A stretch of DNA of 64,000 nucleotides from assembly GCA_028709785.1 (NCBI GenBank), contig JAQUTK010000003.1, forward strand, positions 71,607 through 135,606, given 5' to 3'. This DNA is from Bacteroidales bacterium. Lineage in GTDB: Bacteria; Bacteroidota; Bacteroidia; Bacteroidales; JAQUTK01. A program made the translations under genes and the position numbers. Shown here one piece after another: positions 54,502 to 64,000 of this stretch (position 1 is its first letter; each line of letters opens with the position of its first letter). A model generated the notes under the pieces. That model worked only from the letters and a program-made list of their open reading frames with translations. It ran no database searches and had not been told where the DNA came from.

Positions 54502-54688
54502 ATAATTTCAGGACTAAATTTCTTCACGACAGCATCGGTAGCTAATTTTGCTTCTAGTAATCCGAAAATCAATTGGATGGACTTGTTTTTTGTTGTACTA
54601 ACAGGATGGGTATGAGAGGTTGAGCGAGAGGCGCTTTTTCTATCGTATTTTTCCGATAGGCAGACCGTTTTGTGAGGCTTTTGGTGTG

Positions 54689-54777
54689 CGGAAAGTTAGG
54701 GATTCGAACCCCAGGAACCACATAAGCAGTTCAGCAGATTTCGAGTCTGCCCCGATCGACCACTCCGGCAACTTTCC
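54689..54777 (-). tRNA. tRNA-Ser (anticodon CGA)
   Basis: On the minus strand the acceptor stem is GGAAAGT with ACTTTCC and discriminator G. The anticodon arm CAGACTCGAAATCTG gives CGA. The long variable arm is as expected for tRNA-Ser. The tRNA is transcribed towards rpoC and is the last core gene before the accessory locus; a tRNA end at this point would be a usual integration target, but I found no duplicated 3' end. Confidence 0.96.
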
Positions 54778-54797: not shown

Positions 54798-55071
54798 TAC
54801 TCTTTTCTTTATTCCTGTCTGAGATAAACGAACAAATTACACAATAGGCTCTCTTTTTCAAAGTTCATGCAGATTCCTTCTCTGTTTTTACCCTCTCTCA
54901 CGCATTCTAAAATAGCCGATCCCGACAAACAGATAATCCTCTGTTTTTCAAAAACCTTTTCGCTTCGTTTCCTTTTCTGGAAATGACCTTACAGGCTTAT
55001 CCCTAAATGTTAAAACTGCAATTCTGAAAATATTTACTTGAATTTAATAGTTGATTTGAATTAAATGTTTT

Positions 55072-55079
55072 TACATTTG
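55072..55079 (+). promoter_or_regulatory. -7 element of the FAS1-SusC-SusD-FAS1 operon
   Basis: TACATTTG matches TAnnTTTG. TTG lies 18 bases upstream as a partial -33 box. The leader before the first ATG is about 155 bases, long enough for post-transcriptional control, but no clear structure was recognised. Confidence 0.65.
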
Positions 55080-55239: not shown

Positions 55240-57795
55240 ATGACAAAAGTGTTCTATTACAAAACGAGGAAGCTATATCGCTTCGCGTTAGTATTTTTAT
55301 TGGGCACAGTTTTGGTAACTGGTTGTAAAGACGACTTTGATGGATATTTTGATTATCCGTCGAACATTGAAGGTCCGATTTACGAACAGCTATCTTCGCG
55401 CTCCAATCTGAGCGAATTCGTCAAAGCAATTGACAAAGTTCCGCTTATGAAGTCTATTATTAACACCTCTGGTTTGTATACCGTTTTTGCGCCAACAAAT
55501 GAGGCTATTAAAGCCTATTTCCTGACGCAGACGAGATACCCGGGAAAGTCAGGAATTGAAGACTTTGATGTGGAGAAAAAAGATGCATCCGGCGTAAAAA
55601 CGGACTCTATTCTTTTGTGCCAGTTTATTGAGGCGCACATTGCAATAGATATGTATTTCCATTACGATTTCAAACGATTCATACCTGATGAATCTGCCAA
55701 TTCGGCTGAAATAGGTGGTGCTTCCGATCGTAACCGATATTCTACTCGTTACCGCGATCAAAAGTATTTAGATACAGTTCCGGGAAAATACGTTCTTAAT
55801 AATAAAACAAATGAACGTACCCCTAGAATTTATAAGGTAAGATCAAACTCCAAGTCCGTTACTATCTATCCCTATAAGTATCTGAGACGTCATAGTATTG
55901 TCAATGAGTTTGCAGCGATGTATGGTCTGAAATCGACACCAAGGGGAGAAGATCTCTACGTAAATGGTGTGAAGGTGATTGAAGCGGATATTCCGGCTGT
56001 CAATGGTGCCATCCATATTATTGACGGAGTTATTGAGCCCAAGGATAATCTGGATATGATGATCAAACGACTCAATCCTACCATGTGGTCTATTCTTCAG
56101 AAAGAGGAGTTTTGTAAATATACACCTAATTACGATGCAACAGAAACTGAGGGTATTAGTAAGTTTGATACCATTTGGAACAAACGCTATTCGCTTGGCA
56201 TTGACATTGCCAATGAATACTCGAACAATCTGTATACTGTGTTACTTCCGGGTAAAGGCTTTGAGGATTTTGTAAGAGATAGTATTTTGCCGGCCTACAA
56301 TATTGTGATGGATAGTAGGGGTGTTTTGAAGACTCCAATGGATTCCATTCCTGTAGAAGTAGCGCGGGCTCTGCTTCAACAATTCCTGGTTGGCGGAACC
56401 TTGTGGGAAACTCAGCTGAAATATGGTTTTACAAATGAATCTCGTGATACCTTACAGACGGAGAATCAGACGAAAAGGCCCAAAAACCTTACTGTTACTG
56501 GAACTCTGATTTCCAGCAACGGGTTGGTTTATACGCTTCCCGATAATGTAAGTAACATTTCCAATGTGTTCCGCACAGTGGCCAAAGTTCCGATGATGGA
56601 TCGAAAATACAAATGGTATCTTGATTTAGCAACACGAAATGCCGGTAGCACATCCCCATTTGATGTAATAAAACGTCATTATAGAAAGTTTACGGTGTTT
56701 ATGCCAACTCGTGAGGCGTTTCGTACGCAACCTTGTATGATATACGAAATGAAAGACGAGTATGATAAAATTGATCTGTATCGCAACGGTGAAACGATCT
56801 ATCCGATTGTGACAGACTCTATATTGAAGAATCTAATCATTCCGGACGTTATCCTGACTCCGGACAGTCTGAAACATTTCCAGTTTAGAAAAACATTTAT
56901 GGGAGGATATCTGCAGATTGCAAATAACCAGATTCTCTTCTCTTACAATGATCCGACTACTAAGGTAACTACTGATTATGTATCAACAATACCTACAGTA
57001 GCTCGCGATGCTGCCAATCCGAATGGATACATTCGCACTGAAAATGGTATTGTTTATCCGTTGGATGATCGTGTTCCAATGCCAGCTAGTTTGACCTTAA
57101 GCGGTTATCTGTCAAAAAACAGATCAGAAGCTGGTAATAATCTTTTTTACAAGATTTTGTTCAATACGAAGGTAAATTCTGACCTGATTGCTGAAGATCT
57201 GAAGGTGTCGCCTGTTGTTATTGCCGATAAAAATGATAAAGGTAATATTACTGATCCAAATGAAAAATTGTGGGGAATGTTGATATCAGAAGGCAATGAT
57301 CCGCAGGAAATTTATACTGTATTTTATCCGACGGATGCTGCATTGAAAGCGTATGCGAAAGCATGTAATGTGAAAACAACGATTTTACCTAATGCCTACG
57401 ATGGAGGTGATCCATATTGGGCGAAGATAGCTCGTCAGTTGATCATTAAGACGCGTGTCTATAGTGACGGAACCCGGGTTCAAAACTTCTATGATATTTA
57501 TTCTAATCCGGTGGAAGGAAAAGATAATCTCTTCCAGACACTTAATTACAAGAAAATTGTCAAAGTTACGGACTATTTCAATGATAATGAATATACCAAT
57601 CTGAACCTCTCTTTTGAGAATGGAACGATCACGCTTACAGATCCGATTTCCGGAAGAACAGCTAAAACAACGTCCGTGAAAAATGTGGAGTGCGTGAACG
57701 GTGTGTTCCATGAGATTGATGATATTCCCTTCCCTGTAATGACGACCAAAGCAGAATGGGATAATTTCATTTCAAGACCAATTCCGGCGGAATGA
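55240..57795 (+). CDS. Multi-domain fasciclin (FAS1) surface lipoprotein
   Basis: The protein has 851 residues. The lipobox VTGC (Cys29) is followed directly by KDD, the lipoprotein-export signal known to send Bacteroidota lipoproteins to the cell surface. About four FAS1-like modules follow. Their H1 boxes read LYTVFAPTNEAIKAYF (near 78), LYTVLLPGKGFEDFV (near 330), FTVFMPTREAF (near 485) and IYTVFYPTDAALKAY (near 690); H2-type ends are AVNGAIHIIDGVIEP and CVNGVFHEIDDIPFPV. FAS1 domains mediate adhesion to proteins or glycans. It is first in an operon with SusC, SusD and another FAS1 lipoprotein. The ligand is unknown. Confidence 0.85.
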   Translation: MTKVFYYKTRKLYRFALVFLLGTVLVTGCKDDFDGYFDYPSNIEGPIYEQLSSRSNLSEFVKAIDKVPLMKSIINTSGLYTVFAPTNEAIKAYFLTQTRYPGKSGIEDFDVEKKDASGVKTDSILLCQFIEAHIAIDMYFHYDFKRFIPDESANSAEIGGASDRNRYSTRYRDQKYLDTVPGKYVLNNKTNERTPRIYKVRSNSKSVTIYPYKYLRRHSIVNEFAAMYGLKSTPRGEDLYVNGVKVIEADIPAVNGAIHIIDGVIEPKDNLDMMIKRLNPTMWSILQKEEFCKYTPNYDATETEGISKFDTIWNKRYSLGIDIANEYSNNLYTVLLPGKGFEDFVRDSILPAYNIVMDSRGVLKTPMDSIPVEVARALLQQFLVGGTLWETQLKYGFTNESRDTLQTENQTKRPKNLTVTGTLISSNGLVYTLPDNVSNISNVFRTVAKVPMMDRKYKWYLDLATRNAGSTSPFDVIKRHYRKFTVFMPTREAFRTQPCMIYEMKDEYDKIDLYRNGETIYPIVTDSILKNLIIPDVILTPDSLKHFQFRKTFMGGYLQIANNQILFSYNDPTTKVTTDYVSTIPTVARDAANPNGYIRTENGIVYPLDDRVPMPASLTLSGYLSKNRSEAGNNLFYKILFNTKVNSDLIAEDLKVSPVVIADKNDKGNITDPNEKLWGMLISEGNDPQEIYTVFYPTDAALKAYAKACNVKTTILPNAYDGGDPYWAKIARQLIIKTRVYSDGTRVQNFYDIYSNPVEGKDNLFQTLNYKKIVKVTDYFNDNEYTNLNLSFENGTITLTDPISGRTAKTTSVKNVECVNGVFHEIDDIPFPVMTTKAEWDNFISRPIPAE

Positions 57796-57831
57796 AAAAT
57801 GATGATTCAATAATGATAAACAAAGGAATCT

Positions 57832-60800
57832 ATGAAACAGTTTAAATATATTAGTTGTATAGTAGTGGCACTGTTTTGTGCTCTTTCCGTCAATGTACAA
57901 GCCCAAGGTGGCCGCTGGATATTGAAAGGAGTCATAACTGACAGTCCGGATAATTTTCCGGTTGGGGGAGCCAGTGTCATCTTAGAGACGTCAAACGGAC
58001 GTAATGTCAAAGGTATTTCTACCGATATGGACGGTAATTATATGATAGAGATTACCGTGAATGATCCACAGCTCCGTGTCCGTTTTATTGGTTATAAGGA
58101 ACAGGTCGTTAAGATCAAAAAAGGAGAAACGGTCAAGAATATCGTGCTTCAACCTGACGTGAAGGTCTTGGGTGAAGTTGTGATCTCTGAAAAAGCAAAT
58201 GAAAAGACAACAGACCCTTATTTGGGTCTTGATAAACGTATGACGGCCGCTTCCACCACTTCGGTGAAAATTGAGGATATTGCAGCTTCTCCGGCTTCTT
58301 CTGTTACGGAGATGATGCAGGGGCGTGCATCCGGAGTTCAGATTGTGGCAAATTCCGGTGACCCGGGTTCCGCTTATACGATTCGAGTTCGTGGTAATGC
58401 TTCCATTAATGGTTCGAGCGATCCATTGATTGTGATTGACGGTGTTCCTTACGATGTGGAATTGAATGGTGCGAATATCAATGACCTTACCAGTTCACAT
58501 TCACCCCTTCAGAATGTCAATCCGGCGGATATCGCATCCATTGAAATTTTGAAAGATGCAGCTTCCACCGCGATTTATGGAACGAAAGGAGCGAATGGTG
58601 TTGTATTAATCACAACAAAGCGTGGATCCAAAAACGAGAAAATCGTCAATTTCAACAGTGTTTTCTCCATCAGCCAGGCACCAACCGAGATCCCTTTGTT
58701 GAGTGGTAATAGTCAGAAGACTTTTATCCTTGAGGGAGACCAGCATTCACGCGATGGAGAATCATCAACAGGAGGTTCGTCCAATCTGGATAACCTGACC
58801 TATCAGCAATTGCGTGATGACCCTAACCGTGCCGACTTTTACTATTACAACAATAATACCGATTGGGTGGATTTAGTGACCAGAACCGGTTATTCCTGGA
58901 ATAACAATGTTTCGCTTCGTGGTGGTGGTAATACGACCCGCTATAGCTTCAGTACTGGTTATCGTACAGACCGTGGTACTACAATTGGTGCCACCTATAA
59001 CCAGTTTACAGCTAATTTCACTCTGGATTATAATATTGCAAACAACCTGTCTTTTAAAACTACGATTGGTTACAGCCGTTCGACTACCGGTCGTGATGGA
59101 ACATTAGGTGCAATATATTCAAGTCCTGGAGATCCTTATGATGATGTTAATCCTTTGGGAATGGCCCGTCAGTATCCCGCCTTTCTTTCTGTCTATGAAA
59201 AAGATGCAGTTGGAAAAGATCTGGATGCCTATTATATACCCCGTCCGCTACATGATAATGTTATTTATAGCAGATATCATTACAATCCACTTGCTTGGAC
59301 AAAGTACACTTCACGTGAAATTTTGAATAACGATTTTCGTAGTAATGTTTCGATTGACTGGGAGATTTTCAAGGGCATTCGTTTAACCAGTCTTGTAGCT
59401 TTCAACTTTGGTAATAGCGGTGATCAGAAGTTTATTCCCAGTGAGGCGACTAACCGTGACTGGAATGATCAGTATGTGAATTACACCAGTAAGAGTAACA
59501 GAAACTCGCAGACAATCAATCAGGAGAATATCTTGTCTTTTAAGAAGACCATCCGCGATATTCACGCTATAACAGGTAGCCTCATATCGCGTATACGTTA
59601 CGACTCCAATAGCTCGATCTCCATGAGCGCGACCAATACCGGCTCTCCTTTTGCCAATGGTGTGGATGCTTCCAACAGATGGCAGGGCCTTTCAGGTGGT
59701 GAAGGCCATGGAGGTAGCCTTTCCGGTATCGGATCTTTGCACTATGCCTTGTTGGACCGATATATTGTACAGACAACGATCAACCGAACCGGAAGTTCAA
59801 AGTTTGGACCGGCTCAACGTTGGGGTACATTCCCTACCATTGCGGTTCGTTACCGTATTTCCGGCGAGCCCTTTATGGCTTTCGCAAACGAATGGTTGAG
59901 CGAACTTAGTTTAGTTTACTCCTATGGTTACAGTGGTAATGAGCCAAGGAGTACGGCTTCCTATATCTCCAGATATTCGCAATCAGGTTCTTATCTTGGA
60001 GAATATGGTATTACTGCAAATAACCTCTTGTTGAGTTCATTAAAGTGGGAGAAATCGCGTACCAATAATTACACCGTTAATCTCGGTTTGTTTCAGGATC
60101 GCGTTACCCTGAAGGCGGAATACTACGATAAACTGACTACAGATCTTTTGACAGATCGTATAATGCCAAGTACTTCCGGCTATGAATCGCGTGAGACAAA
60201 CTTTGGTTCGTTAAGTAACAAAGGTTATGAATTTGAGTTCGGTGCTGATATTTTAAGATCCAAACTCAGATGGAATGTCTATGGCAATCTGGCTATGAAT
60301 AGAAACAAGATTACCTACTGGCCGGAAGAGTTGATTCAGAATGAGGATGGAGATATTTCATGGTCTGCAGGGAATGAGAATACGGGATATCCTGCGCTGA
60401 TTCGCGAAGGTGATCCGCTCGGCTCTTTTTACGGCTTTAAGTTTAAAGGGGTATTTGCGCAGGATGCCGATGCTGTCGCACGTGATGCACAGGGCAATGT
60501 GATGCTTGACCTGGATGGAACTGCAAAACGGTTGACCTGGAACGATAGTTATGACTTTACAGGTGGTGATGCCATCTATGAAGACTTGAATCATGATGGT
60601 ATCATTAGTAACCGTGACCGTACGCTGATCGGTGATGCAAATCCTGATTTCTTTGGTGGTATCGGCTCCAAATTAGCATGGAATCGCTGGCGACTGGATG
60701 TCTTCTTCCAATTCCAGGTCGGGAATGATATTATCAATGCTGCCCGAAAGGATCTCGAAGCTCAAAACGGAGGAACAAATAAAAATGTTAATCAGGCTCA

Positions 60801-61149
60801 GTCCGTGATGCGTCGCTGGAGAAAACAAGGCGATGTGACTGATATGCCTCGTGTCGTTTTTGCAACACATTACAATTCAGCAGGTAGCGATAAATATGTG
60901 GAAGATGGTTCTTATATTCGCTTAAAAAGTTTGGCGTTAACCTATGACATATCACAGAACTTCTGTAAGAAAATCGGTATGCGTAATGCAAGTTTAACGT
61001 TCAATGCGTATAATCTTCTTACCGTTACCAACTACAAAGGGCAGGACCCTGAAATATCCATTGGTGGAGGAGTCGGAAATATGGGTGTGGATGGAAGCCG
61101 TACCGCTGTACCCCGTTCATATACCCTTGCGCTTGCTTTAACCTTCTAA
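57832..61149 (+). CDS. SusC/RagA-type TonB-linked outer-membrane transporter
   Basis: The protein has 1105 residues. A signal peptide (VVALFCALSVNVQAQ) is followed by a carboxypeptidase-D regulatory-like domain (about 30-115: LKGVITDSPDNFPVGGASV). The plug domain (about 130-260) has MMQGRASGVQIV, IRVRGNASING, DPLIVIDGVP and VLKDAAS-type text (IEILKDAASTAIYGTKGANGVVLITTKRG). The 22-strand barrel then runs to the C-terminal PRSYTLALALTF. With SusD it forms a pedal-bin importer for glycans or peptides too large for porins. It lies between the FAS1 lipoprotein and SusD. No degradative enzyme is visible in the locus, so the substrate cannot be inferred. Confidence 0.97.
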   Translation: MKQFKYISCIVVALFCALSVNVQAQGGRWILKGVITDSPDNFPVGGASVILETSNGRNVKGISTDMDGNYMIEITVNDPQLRVRFIGYKEQVVKIKKGETVKNIVLQPDVKVLGEVVISEKANEKTTDPYLGLDKRMTAASTTSVKIEDIAASPASSVTEMMQGRASGVQIVANSGDPGSAYTIRVRGNASINGSSDPLIVIDGVPYDVELNGANINDLTSSHSPLQNVNPADIASIEILKDAASTAIYGTKGANGVVLITTKRGSKNEKIVNFNSVFSISQAPTEIPLLSGNSQKTFILEGDQHSRDGESSTGGSSNLDNLTYQQLRDDPNRADFYYYNNNTDWVDLVTRTGYSWNNNVSLRGGGNTTRYSFSTGYRTDRGTTIGATYNQFTANFTLDYNIANNLSFKTTIGYSRSTTGRDGTLGAIYSSPGDPYDDVNPLGMARQYPAFLSVYEKDAVGKDLDAYYIPRPLHDNVIYSRYHYNPLAWTKYTSREILNNDFRSNVSIDWEIFKGIRLTSLVAFNFGNSGDQKFIPSEATNRDWNDQYVNYTSKSNRNSQTINQENILSFKKTIRDIHAITGSLISRIRYDSNSSISMSATNTGSPFANGVDASNRWQGLSGGEGHGGSLSGIGSLHYALLDRYIVQTTINRTGSSKFGPAQRWGTFPTIAVRYRISGEPFMAFANEWLSELSLVYSYGYSGNEPRSTASYISRYSQSGSYLGEYGITANNLLLSSLKWEKSRTNNYTVNLGLFQDRVTLKAEYYDKLTTDLLTDRIMPSTSGYESRETNFGSLSNKGYEFEFGADILRSKLRWNVYGNLAMNRNKITYWPEELIQNEDGDISWSAGNENTGYPALIREGDPLGSFYGFKFKGVFAQDADAVARDAQGNVMLDLDGTAKRLTWNDSYDFTGGDAIYEDLNHDGIISNRDRTLIGDANPDFFGGIGSKLAWNRWRLDVFFQFQVGNDIINAARKDLEAQNGGTNKNVNQAQSVMRRWRKQGDVTDMPRVVFATHYNSAGSDKYVEDGSYIRLKSLALTYDISQNFCKKIGMRNASLTFNAYNLLTVTNYKGQDPEISIGGGVGNMGVDGSRTAVPRSYTLALALTF

Positions 61150-61160
61150 ATGTAACGAAT

Positions 61161-62855
61161 ATGAATACAATTTTTAAAATATCAAGAATAAAACTCTTAT
61201 TGCTTTCCGCATTTGTCACAGGAATGGGTAGTTGCAGTCTTCTCGATCCGAATCTGGATAATGAAATCACTTTGGATGACATGTGGAAGAAAAAAGAAGA
61301 CGTTGATAAAGCGCTTGTCGCAGCTTATGATCAAGTTCAAAATTGCACGTCACGGTTTTATGCGTGGGGTGAGCTGGGTGGCGAACTTTTGAATTCCGAG
61401 GTCAATGAGTATCGTGACATTTTCAATCATGTTTTAACAGAAAATATGTCCGTAGCAAGTTGGTCTTCTGTCTATGGAGCAATCAGTAAGATCAATCTCG
61501 TGTATGCTTATGCACCTGCAGCTCAGGCTGTAGATGCCACTTTCGATATGCGAGATCTGCAATATATGATGGGTGAGTGTATTGCTTTGCGCTCCATGTG
61601 CTATTTTTATCTGGCACGCACCTATCTGGAAGCTCCCTATGTGGAAGAGGCTTCTTTGACGGACTTACAGAATTATATTGTACCTCCGATGGATCGTTAC
61701 AAAATGTTGGATACGGTTCGACTCGGTCTTTTAAAAGCATTGCCGCTTGTTCGTGAGTCGTGGCCTTCTCCAGATAACTTCTCTGATCCCGCGATGCGTG
61801 CTCCTACTGTTAAAGGCCGTATATCCAAACCTGTTGTTTATGCTCTTTTGGCAGATGTCTATCTGACAATGGCATCTGAAGTAGATAATCTTAATGCAGC
61901 AGGAAAGATCAAGATCAATGGAACCAGCACGGAGTTTTATGAAAAAGCGAATGCCTATGCGGATTCCGTAATTAACTATAAAACTCAGTATGACTCTTAT
62001 GGCTTGACAAGCGGTGATCAATGGCTCACTAACTTTTATCCGGGCAATGTCAATGAAACGATCTTTGCTATTCAGTACATGAGAAACACCACCACCTCTT
62101 TTGCTGATATTGGCTGGATGTGGGATAAGTTTCGTAATGGTGGACTTGTTTGGCAGAGAAACAGGTACACTGAAACCTATAAGCAGTGGCAAGGAGAGAA
62201 AGTAGATCAACCTCTTGATGATGATGATCGTGGTCAGGGTATTTCTTACGTCTTGACGTCAAGTGGATCCGGTTCTACAGCCAGTGGATCTGTTATCTGG
62301 AAGTTTATCGCCATTCGCGAAGATGAACAGGGGGCTGATGAAAACCGCCGGACTATCGGTGTAAATGATGCCATCAACTTTACAATCTATCGTGTTGCTG
62401 AAATGTATCTGATTAAAGCGGAAGCCTTGAATTGTCTGGAACGTCGTTCAGAGGCTGCAGACGCGCTTTTAAAAGTTCGTCAGCGTGGTGTTCCGGCTAT
62501 TTCGGATTTGCGGACCGACAGAGACTTCTTAAGGCAACCTGTTCTCGCCTCCAAGACCCTTGTAGAATTTGAGGATGAGATACTTGCTGAAAGAGCTTCT
62601 GAACTTGGTGCTGAAGGCAAAAGGTGGTTTGATCTTGTCCGATTTGCGAAGCGCAGACTGAATACAGATCCGGGAAATGCCAAATATATCATTATTGACC
62701 GTATTGTAGAAGCCCGCGCTGATCAGTCAGAGAAACCAAAATGGGAGGCAAAACTCTTCCGTGAAGATTCCTGGTTCTTCCCTATTGCCCGCAAGGAGTT
62801 GGATAATAATAAACTGTTAAAACAGAATGCTTACTATTCTACTGATTTTAAGTAA
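61161..62855 (+). CDS. SusD/RagB-type surface substrate-binding lipoprotein
   Basis: The protein has 564 residues. The lipobox is MGSC-SLLDP. The SusD TPR scaffold is evident (DDMWKKKEDVDKALVAAYDQ; CIALRSMCYFYLARTYLEAP) and so is the C-terminal signature (RVAEMYLIKAEALNCL, LAERASELGAEGKRWFDLVRF). It covers the SusC barrel and binds the substrate. It starts 11 bases after SusC. Confidence 0.96.
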   Translation: MNTIFKISRIKLLLLSAFVTGMGSCSLLDPNLDNEITLDDMWKKKEDVDKALVAAYDQVQNCTSRFYAWGELGGELLNSEVNEYRDIFNHVLTENMSVASWSSVYGAISKINLVYAYAPAAQAVDATFDMRDLQYMMGECIALRSMCYFYLARTYLEAPYVEEASLTDLQNYIVPPMDRYKMLDTVRLGLLKALPLVRESWPSPDNFSDPAMRAPTVKGRISKPVVYALLADVYLTMASEVDNLNAAGKIKINGTSTEFYEKANAYADSVINYKTQYDSYGLTSGDQWLTNFYPGNVNETIFAIQYMRNTTTSFADIGWMWDKFRNGGLVWQRNRYTETYKQWQGEKVDQPLDDDDRGQGISYVLTSSGSGSTASGSVIWKFIAIREDEQGADENRRTIGVNDAINFTIYRVAEMYLIKAEALNCLERRSEAADALLKVRQRGVPAISDLRTDRDFLRQPVLASKTLVEFEDEILAERASELGAEGKRWFDLVRFAKRRLNTDPGNAKYIIIDRIVEARADQSEKPKWEAKLFREDSWFFPIARKELDNNKLLKQNAYYSTDFK

Positions 62856-62910
62856 AGTAATAAACAAGATGAGTGAATTGAAATAGTAACATTACGAAAA
62901 ACAAAGAAAT

Positions 62911-64000
62911 ATGAAACGAATATTCAATATAGTATTAGCCGGCATGTTAATCTGTCTTGCGTTTTCTTTCTCATCCTGCAAAGAGGATTATGTAGAAAGA
63001 CCAGTAACGAAGAAATCTCAGATGATGATTGCCGAATATCTAAATTCCAGAGCTGATTTGAGCCTTTTCAAGGAGATCGCAGACAAGGCGAAAAAAAGCA
63101 GAAGTTACAAAGACGCGACCGGAGCGTGGGATACCATTCTGAATGTGCCCGATTCGGTAGCAGGCTATATCCGTTATGGCGCTCTTCTGAATTCTTATGG
63201 TACATATACCGTGTTTGTACCGAACAATGATGCAATCATGGAGTATCTGAAATCAATTAATTGTACCTCTGTCAGTCAAATGGACAGTGTGCAACTCGAA
63301 GAGTTTATGGCTGCTCACCTGGTTCAGCAGCAGGTAACTTTGCGTGCCTATATATCAGGTACGATGAAAATTTCCGACTCTACAACTACCGGTGTACGTC
63401 ACTATGTGGATGTTCCCGGATTTGGTCAAGATATTATTCTAGATAAAGTGGCAAGCGTTAAAAACAATGCGATGCCGAAAGAGACATTCAATGGATATGT
63501 TTATGAGATAACGAAAGTACTGCCTCCGCATGCCAACTATCTGGAAGGATACTTGAAGGACGCGGGAAAATATACAGAATCGGACGGATCCCGTTTTACG
63601 GTGATGCTCAAAGCCTTTGAAGAGGCGGGAATGACTAAATCTGTGTTGCGTACGATCAGAACTCCTCACAGAGATTCCGTGATGCGTACAAAGGCAGCTT
63701 ATGAAATCTTTTTTCCAACAGTACTTGCTGTTTCAGATTCTGCGTATGCTGCAAAAGGAATTACAGATGTTGCCGGACTTATCTCATACATTAAGAGCTC
63801 TACTGACCTTACCGCCGATACAGCCTGGACCAATCATTATTCTTCGGATAAAGATCTGTTGAAAGCCTATTTGTTGTATCATATTGTACCGGGTAAAAAA
63901 GATTATGATCGAAGTGGTAGTAACTTGTATTACTATGGACAGTCTTGCTATCAATTCTGTGAAAGAACTGCTGTGATGCCAACCACTCTCCGTGATTCCT
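62911..64000 (+). CDS. Second fasciclin (FAS1) surface lipoprotein, C-terminus outside the window
   Basis: The frame is open from 62911 to the end of the window (363 codons). The signal peptide (IVLAGMLICLAFSF) ends in the lipobox SSC (Cys23), followed by KED, again a surface-export signal. FAS1 H1 box GTYTVFVPNNDAIMEYL is near residue 97. A second module seems to begin near 215 (GRFTVMLKAFEEAG-like, read SRFTVMLKAFEEAG), and its helices ITDVAGLISYIKSS precede the window end. It is a paralogue of the first FAS1 gene of the operon, 55 bases after SusD. Total length and domain number are unknown. Confidence 0.85.
   Translation, partial: MKRIFNIVLAGMLICLAFSFSSCKEDYVERPVTKKSQMMIAEYLNSRADLSLFKEIADKAKKSRSYKDATGAWDTILNVPDSVAGYIRYGALLNSYGTYTVFVPNNDAIMEYLKSINCTSVSQMDSVQLEEFMAAHLVQQQVTLRAYISGTMKISDSTTTGVRHYVDVPGFGQDIILDKVASVKNNAMPKETFNGYVYEITKVLPPHANYLEGYLKDAGKYTESDGSRFTVMLKAFEEAGMTKSVLRTIRTPHRDSVMRTKAAYEIFFPTVLAVSDSAYAAKGITDVAGLISYIKSSTDLTADTAWTNHYSSDKDLLKAYLLYHIVPGKKDYDRSGSNLYYYGQSCYQFCERTAVMPTTLRDS

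Follow-up and report, generated by a model that had tools for sequence, protein, structure and literature searches.

Proteins with FAS1 modules encoded beside SusC and SusD raise two questions: what such proteins do at an outer-membrane transporter, and what that transporter carries. Both arise at the end of the window, the whole stretch of 64,000 nucleotides analysed here (positions 71607-135606 of contig C67), which comes from a Bacteroidales source genome of 3.55 Mb in 70 contigs that is 99.8% complete.

The window locus and its continuation

The first cassette gene, F1 (55240..57795, + strand), encodes a lipoprotein of 851 aa with four FAS1 stretches (Pfam Fasciclin, 2.4e-23). It is followed after 36 bases by C1 (57832..61149, +), a SusC/RagA TonB-linked outer-membrane transporter of 1105 aa (TIGR04056, 4.4e-212, 707 bits, against a curated SusC cut-off of 368 bits), and after a further 11 bases by D1 (61161..62855, +), a SusD/RagB lipoprotein of 564 aa (Pfam SusD_RagB, 2e-27). 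The FAS1 lipoprotein gene F2 begins 55 bases after D1 and is cut by the window end (62911..64000, +; Pfam Fasciclin, 2.8e-13). The Fasciclin scores of F1 and F2 are 83.1 and 50.6 bits, with the PF02469 cut-off at 22 bits. These matches bear out the description in the earlier note of FAS1 lipoproteins flanking a complete SusCD pair at 55240-64000.

The window end splits the cassette. Open reading frames beyond it give the entire F2 gene (L004:9518-11452, +; 644 aa overall) and F3 (L004:11449-13329, +), which encodes a putative, divergent FAS1-type lipoprotein of 626 aa. C2, a second SusC of 1089 aa (L004:13366-16635, +; TIGR04056, 687 bits), is directly followed by D2, a second SusD of 571 aa (L004:16656-18371, +; SusD match, 3.4e-18), just as C1 is directly followed by D1. 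The whole locus thus has two SusCD pairs and, with the putative F3, three lipoproteins of FAS1 type, and a reading as a single SusCD pair was rejected on account of C2-D2. After D2 come a lipoprotein-like gene of 535 aa (open reading frame L007:396-2003, +; no Pfam or NCBIfam match) and a gene of 226 aa that is MORN-like by eye (open reading frame L007:2029-2709, +; no family match). Past the latter, ribosomal protein genes (rplI, rpsR/rpsF region) were read by eye on the opposite strand. Upstream of the cassette rpoB and rpoC were recognised by eye, and a tRNA-Ser (CGA) gene lies between rpoC and F1 (54688-54777, - strand). A possible Bacteroidales-type promoter (TTTG ... TACATTTG; 55055..55079, +), a pattern match about 160 bases upstream of F1, is suggestive only, and the pattern is not enriched in the window (7 matches vs 5.1 in shuffles). 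The locus is also carried by the MAG STD2_256, a named relative of the Bacteroidales host, with 88% identity in D1.

Reading by eye of the open reading frame translations of the locus and of about 13 kb downstream showed no carbohydrate-active enzyme, in agreement with the earlier note, which had reported none visible. The downstream genes, read as F3, C2, D2 and the 535-aa and 226-aa genes, likewise include no glycoside hydrolase recognisable by eye, and neither an HTCS regulator nor a rhamnogalacturonan-I (RG-I) enzyme was seen among the open reading frames at the window locus.

Conservation of the seven-gene cassette

Scans of 295 Bacteroidales genomes and of 296 Bacteroidia genomes with the F1 profile gave matches at 1e-15 or better in 29 and 11 of them, respectively. 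Forty regions with an F1 match were read and labelled with slot profiles. Since F1 was the only selection criterion, the other cassette genes in these regions are independent evidence. F1-C1-D1-F2-F3-C2-D2 is complete, in this order and on one strand, in 32 of the 40. L087 holds all seven genes with F2 shifted ahead of F1, and six loci (L053, L064, L070, L071, L083, L086) are cut by the contig or the fetched end and are consistent so far. L062 is the one failing locus, with F1 and a short F2 and no SusCD. The F2 profile, for its part, matches 122 of 199 genomes of an apparently Bacteroidaceae-like family (that of G237); 17 of the 20 F2-picked Bacteroidaceae regions that were read hold the complete cassette, and the remaining three (L148, L152, L153) have F2-type genes alone or in tandem. 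The idea of a FAS1-based uptake system had been exposed beforehand to refutation by a survey of FAS1 genes next to susCD, and it is upheld by these counts, in which FAS1 genes co-occur with the SusCD clade in fixed order in dozens of loci. Accidental gene adjacency was rejected on the same ground.

When the window was removed from the slot profiles, its F1, C1, D1 and F2 scored 233.7, 1013.9, 321.9 and 195.9 bits, and every window gene except F3 found its own slot profile best among the slots, well above chance. In trees of 52 loci, C1+D1 and C2+D2 have 35 of 49 splits in common, which indicates that the unit is inherited together, and the three copies of G491 (L057, L058, L063) take matching positions in both trees. 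The seven genes are one conserved outer-membrane import cassette. Several genomes hold three copies that belong to different clades, and in both trees the window cassette branches off deeply and alone.

FAS1-type lipoproteins and known SusCD systems

F1 and F2 carry a lipobox-like signal followed by acidic residues (CKDDFDG and CKEDYVE, respectively). At least two acidic residues are found at +2 to +6 after the lipobox cysteine in 26/40 F1 (65%), 32/44 F2 (73%) and 31/47 F3 (66%) proteins, against a background rate of 12%. We take this pattern to resemble the Bacteroidetes surface lipoprotein signal, for which a literature search found no paper, and from these residues the three proteins are predicted to lie at the cell surface. 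By profile comparison F2 aligns with F3 over nearly the full length, and F1 aligns with both. The Fasciclin profile (PF02469) matches 41/41 F2-slot and 35/41 F3-slot proteins. DUF5108 is specific to F2, where it matches 18/41 slot proteins, and among the 296 Bacteroidia genomes it occurs in three, every time at the cassette (compare L090, L089 and L092). The window F2 has no DUF5108 match above threshold, and the window F3, with no Pfam or NCBIfam match, is found by the F3-slot profile (5.4e-15) with filters off only. An AlphaFold model of F1 from two sequences reached a mean pLDDT of 27.5 and was unusable.

FAS1 genes also occur apart from SusCD. F2-type genes stand without it at L148:8529-15507, L153:9482-18828 and L152:8502-10577, in tandem arrays of three to five in two of these genomes, and at L062:13640-17011 F1 and the short F2 lie on opposite strands.

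The layout of two SusCD pairs is already known from the RG-I polysaccharide utilization locus (PUL) of Bacteroides thetaiotaomicron (BT4145-BT4183), whose primary substrate is RG-I (PMC3243724). Its core, BT4164-BT4169, has the pairs BT4164/65 and BT4168/69 (PMC8002723) with two lipoproteins between them, one of them the DUF5108 protein of this group (PMC10434189), and the window locus likewise has two pairs with lipoproteins between. BT4167 is a surface RG-I-binding protein and BT4170 a surface lyase (PMC8002723); in L137, from the Bacteroidaceae, a Pel9A-like protein comes after the full cassette, in the position that BT4170 has after BT4169. By analogy BT4163 would correspond to F1, the putative slot-by-slot homology being drawn from published annotation. 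Unlike this PUL, the window cassette has no linked enzyme or HTCS regulator and no DUF5108 match in F2, and it stands between rpoBC and the rplI-rpsR-rpsF genes. What is new is the proposed role of FAS1 and the sole, unlinked form of the system.

The levan and dextran utilisomes (SusCD + SGBP + GH; PMC7618045) share with the cassette a SusC/D core with lipoproteins, predicted in the cassette to lie at the surface, but they contain only one kind of SusCD pair, lack FAS1 proteins and include a surface GH. BT2261-2264 (5fq6-8) resembles the cassette in that SusCD is accompanied by two extra lipoproteins whose role is unclear; however, C1 matches BT2264 (5fq6) at a mere 2.1e-31, and no SusCD-associated chain was matched when F1 was compared with the PDB. 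The best PDB match of C1 is the dextran SusC 8aa4 (3.4e-107), followed by RagA 6sli (1.7e-64).

The FAS1 domains may keep the complex together or bind glycan. Protein-protein interaction is a known function of FAS1 modules. A purely structural role, in which they bridge both SusCD pairs into a larger complex and have no contact with the cargo, would suit the fixed order of three FAS1 proteins around two pairs; we consider it unlikely, as BT4167, in the F2/F3 position, is described as an RG-I-binding protein of the surface (PMC8002723). It is a tentative possibility that the FAS1 lipoproteins are scaffolds of a separate class, which capture glycan and link two different SusCD pairs in a double transport complex for pectin, the sole SusCD system of the organism. 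A search of the open literature that paired FAS1 with SusC/SusD, with PULs or with pectin returned nothing relevant, and neither a structure of FAS1 with SusCD nor a binding experiment came to light.

Cargo of the cassette and catabolic genes of the source genome

The flanks of 20 loci contain GH28, PL11, pectate lyase, GH88, GH106, RhaA and RhaT, and also GH5 and GH26. The pectin families that recur across clades are GH28, PL11, PL9-like, pectate lyase, pectinesterase, GH88 and GH106. Of 47 cassettes, 7 have GH106 at a distance of 15 kb or less, vs 1.5 expected, and 3 have PL11 in that range, vs 2.0 expected, which for PL11 is no excess; these 47 include some F1 matches at which the cassette itself was unread. 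At the level of genomes, PL11 is present in 19/29 F1-positive and 18/266 F1-negative Bacteroidales genomes, an odds ratio of 26 (p 5e-13) in which kinship and overall richness in glycan enzymes are not fully controlled, and it is absent from 10 of the 29. When genomes are collapsed to families, 13 of the 16 F1-bearing families also have PL11, a strong association at assumed totals of 60-150 families. A family of 718-aa proteins with no Pfam or NCBIfam match, possibly an unnamed enzyme, occurs near the cassette in 4 of the 20 loci (e.g. L121:9781-11937).

In addition to pectin families, the flanks hold GH5, GH9, GH26, GH95, GH116 and GH29. They would fit a cassette that imports plant glycans in general, with a cargo that varies by clade, as would the genomes with three copies in different clades. 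The deep, lone position of the window cassette adds to this, since a branch of this kind may have shifted its substrate to, for example, mannan, xyloglucan or arabinogalactan. The recurrence of pectin families across clades and the PL11 association speak against such a general cassette, as does a source genome that has a complete set of RG-I and rhamnose genes but no other SusC, and we regard it as rather unlikely.

A role of FAS1 as matrix ligand, in adhesion or in the import of peptides or of fragments of matrix proteins, has other points in its favour. Some SusCD-type systems (RagAB) take peptides, the cassette of the window has no linked carbohydrate enzyme, and F1 matches TGFBIp and periostin among the animal, algal and other FAS1 proteins in the PDB, animal FAS1 being a binder of matrix proteins. 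However, apart from a few prolyl-oligopeptidase-type matches, which would also fit esterases, no peptidase recurs in the flanks of the cassette, and C1 is nearest to the dextran SusC, well ahead of BT2264, though RagA lies between. Adhesion to, or fragment import from, a protein or host/biofilm matrix had been the suggestion of the earlier note. It is left unsupported by the layout of the RG-I locus, the PL11 association, the GH106 linkage and the RG-I catabolism genes in the genome; the evidence favours pectin, in particular rhamnogalacturonan, and we consider such adhesion, or import of peptides or matrix fragments, very improbable.

In the source genome, no SusC other than C1 and C2 matches over the cut-off. 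Contig C51 holds PL11, a GDSL esterase, a mannitol-dehydrogenase-type oxidoreductase and altronate dehydratase; C43 a second PL11; C14 a GH28-GH106 fusion; and C27 GH106, a class II aldolase, RhaT, RhaA and a sugar kinase. The stretches read around these RG-I and rhamnose catabolism genes contained no cassette-type gene. With RG-I enzymes elsewhere in the genome, the lack of linked enzymes does not mean an organism without enzymes, and the genome encodes RG-I breakdown together with one candidate import system.

From these associations we infer that the cargo is probably a pectin-derived oligosaccharide, above all rhamnogalacturonan, taken up with surface FAS1 partners by what is here the sole SusCD system. 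In such a pectin system, oligosaccharides would enter through two SusC barrels, each of which has its own SusD as a lid, and TonB would supply the energy. At the cell surface, the three FAS1-type lipoproteins would be glycan-capturing or scaffolding partners and would fill the place of the SGBPs (SusE/F-like) of other loci. The imported fragments would then be finished by the unlinked PL11 lyase, GDSL esterase, GH28-GH106 fusion and GH106 rhamnosidase, and the products would pass into RhaT/A/B/D and the altronate route.

The cassette ties FAS1 and DUF5108, domains of unclear bacterial role, to a defined and widespread transport unit, and names three putative surface proteins as candidate partners of two SusCD pairs. 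In a genome with just one SusCD system, the cargo may be assigned by elimination. Should the FAS1 proteins prove to bridge the pairs or to bind RG-I, the arrangement of the RG-I system of the gut would become testable by structure.
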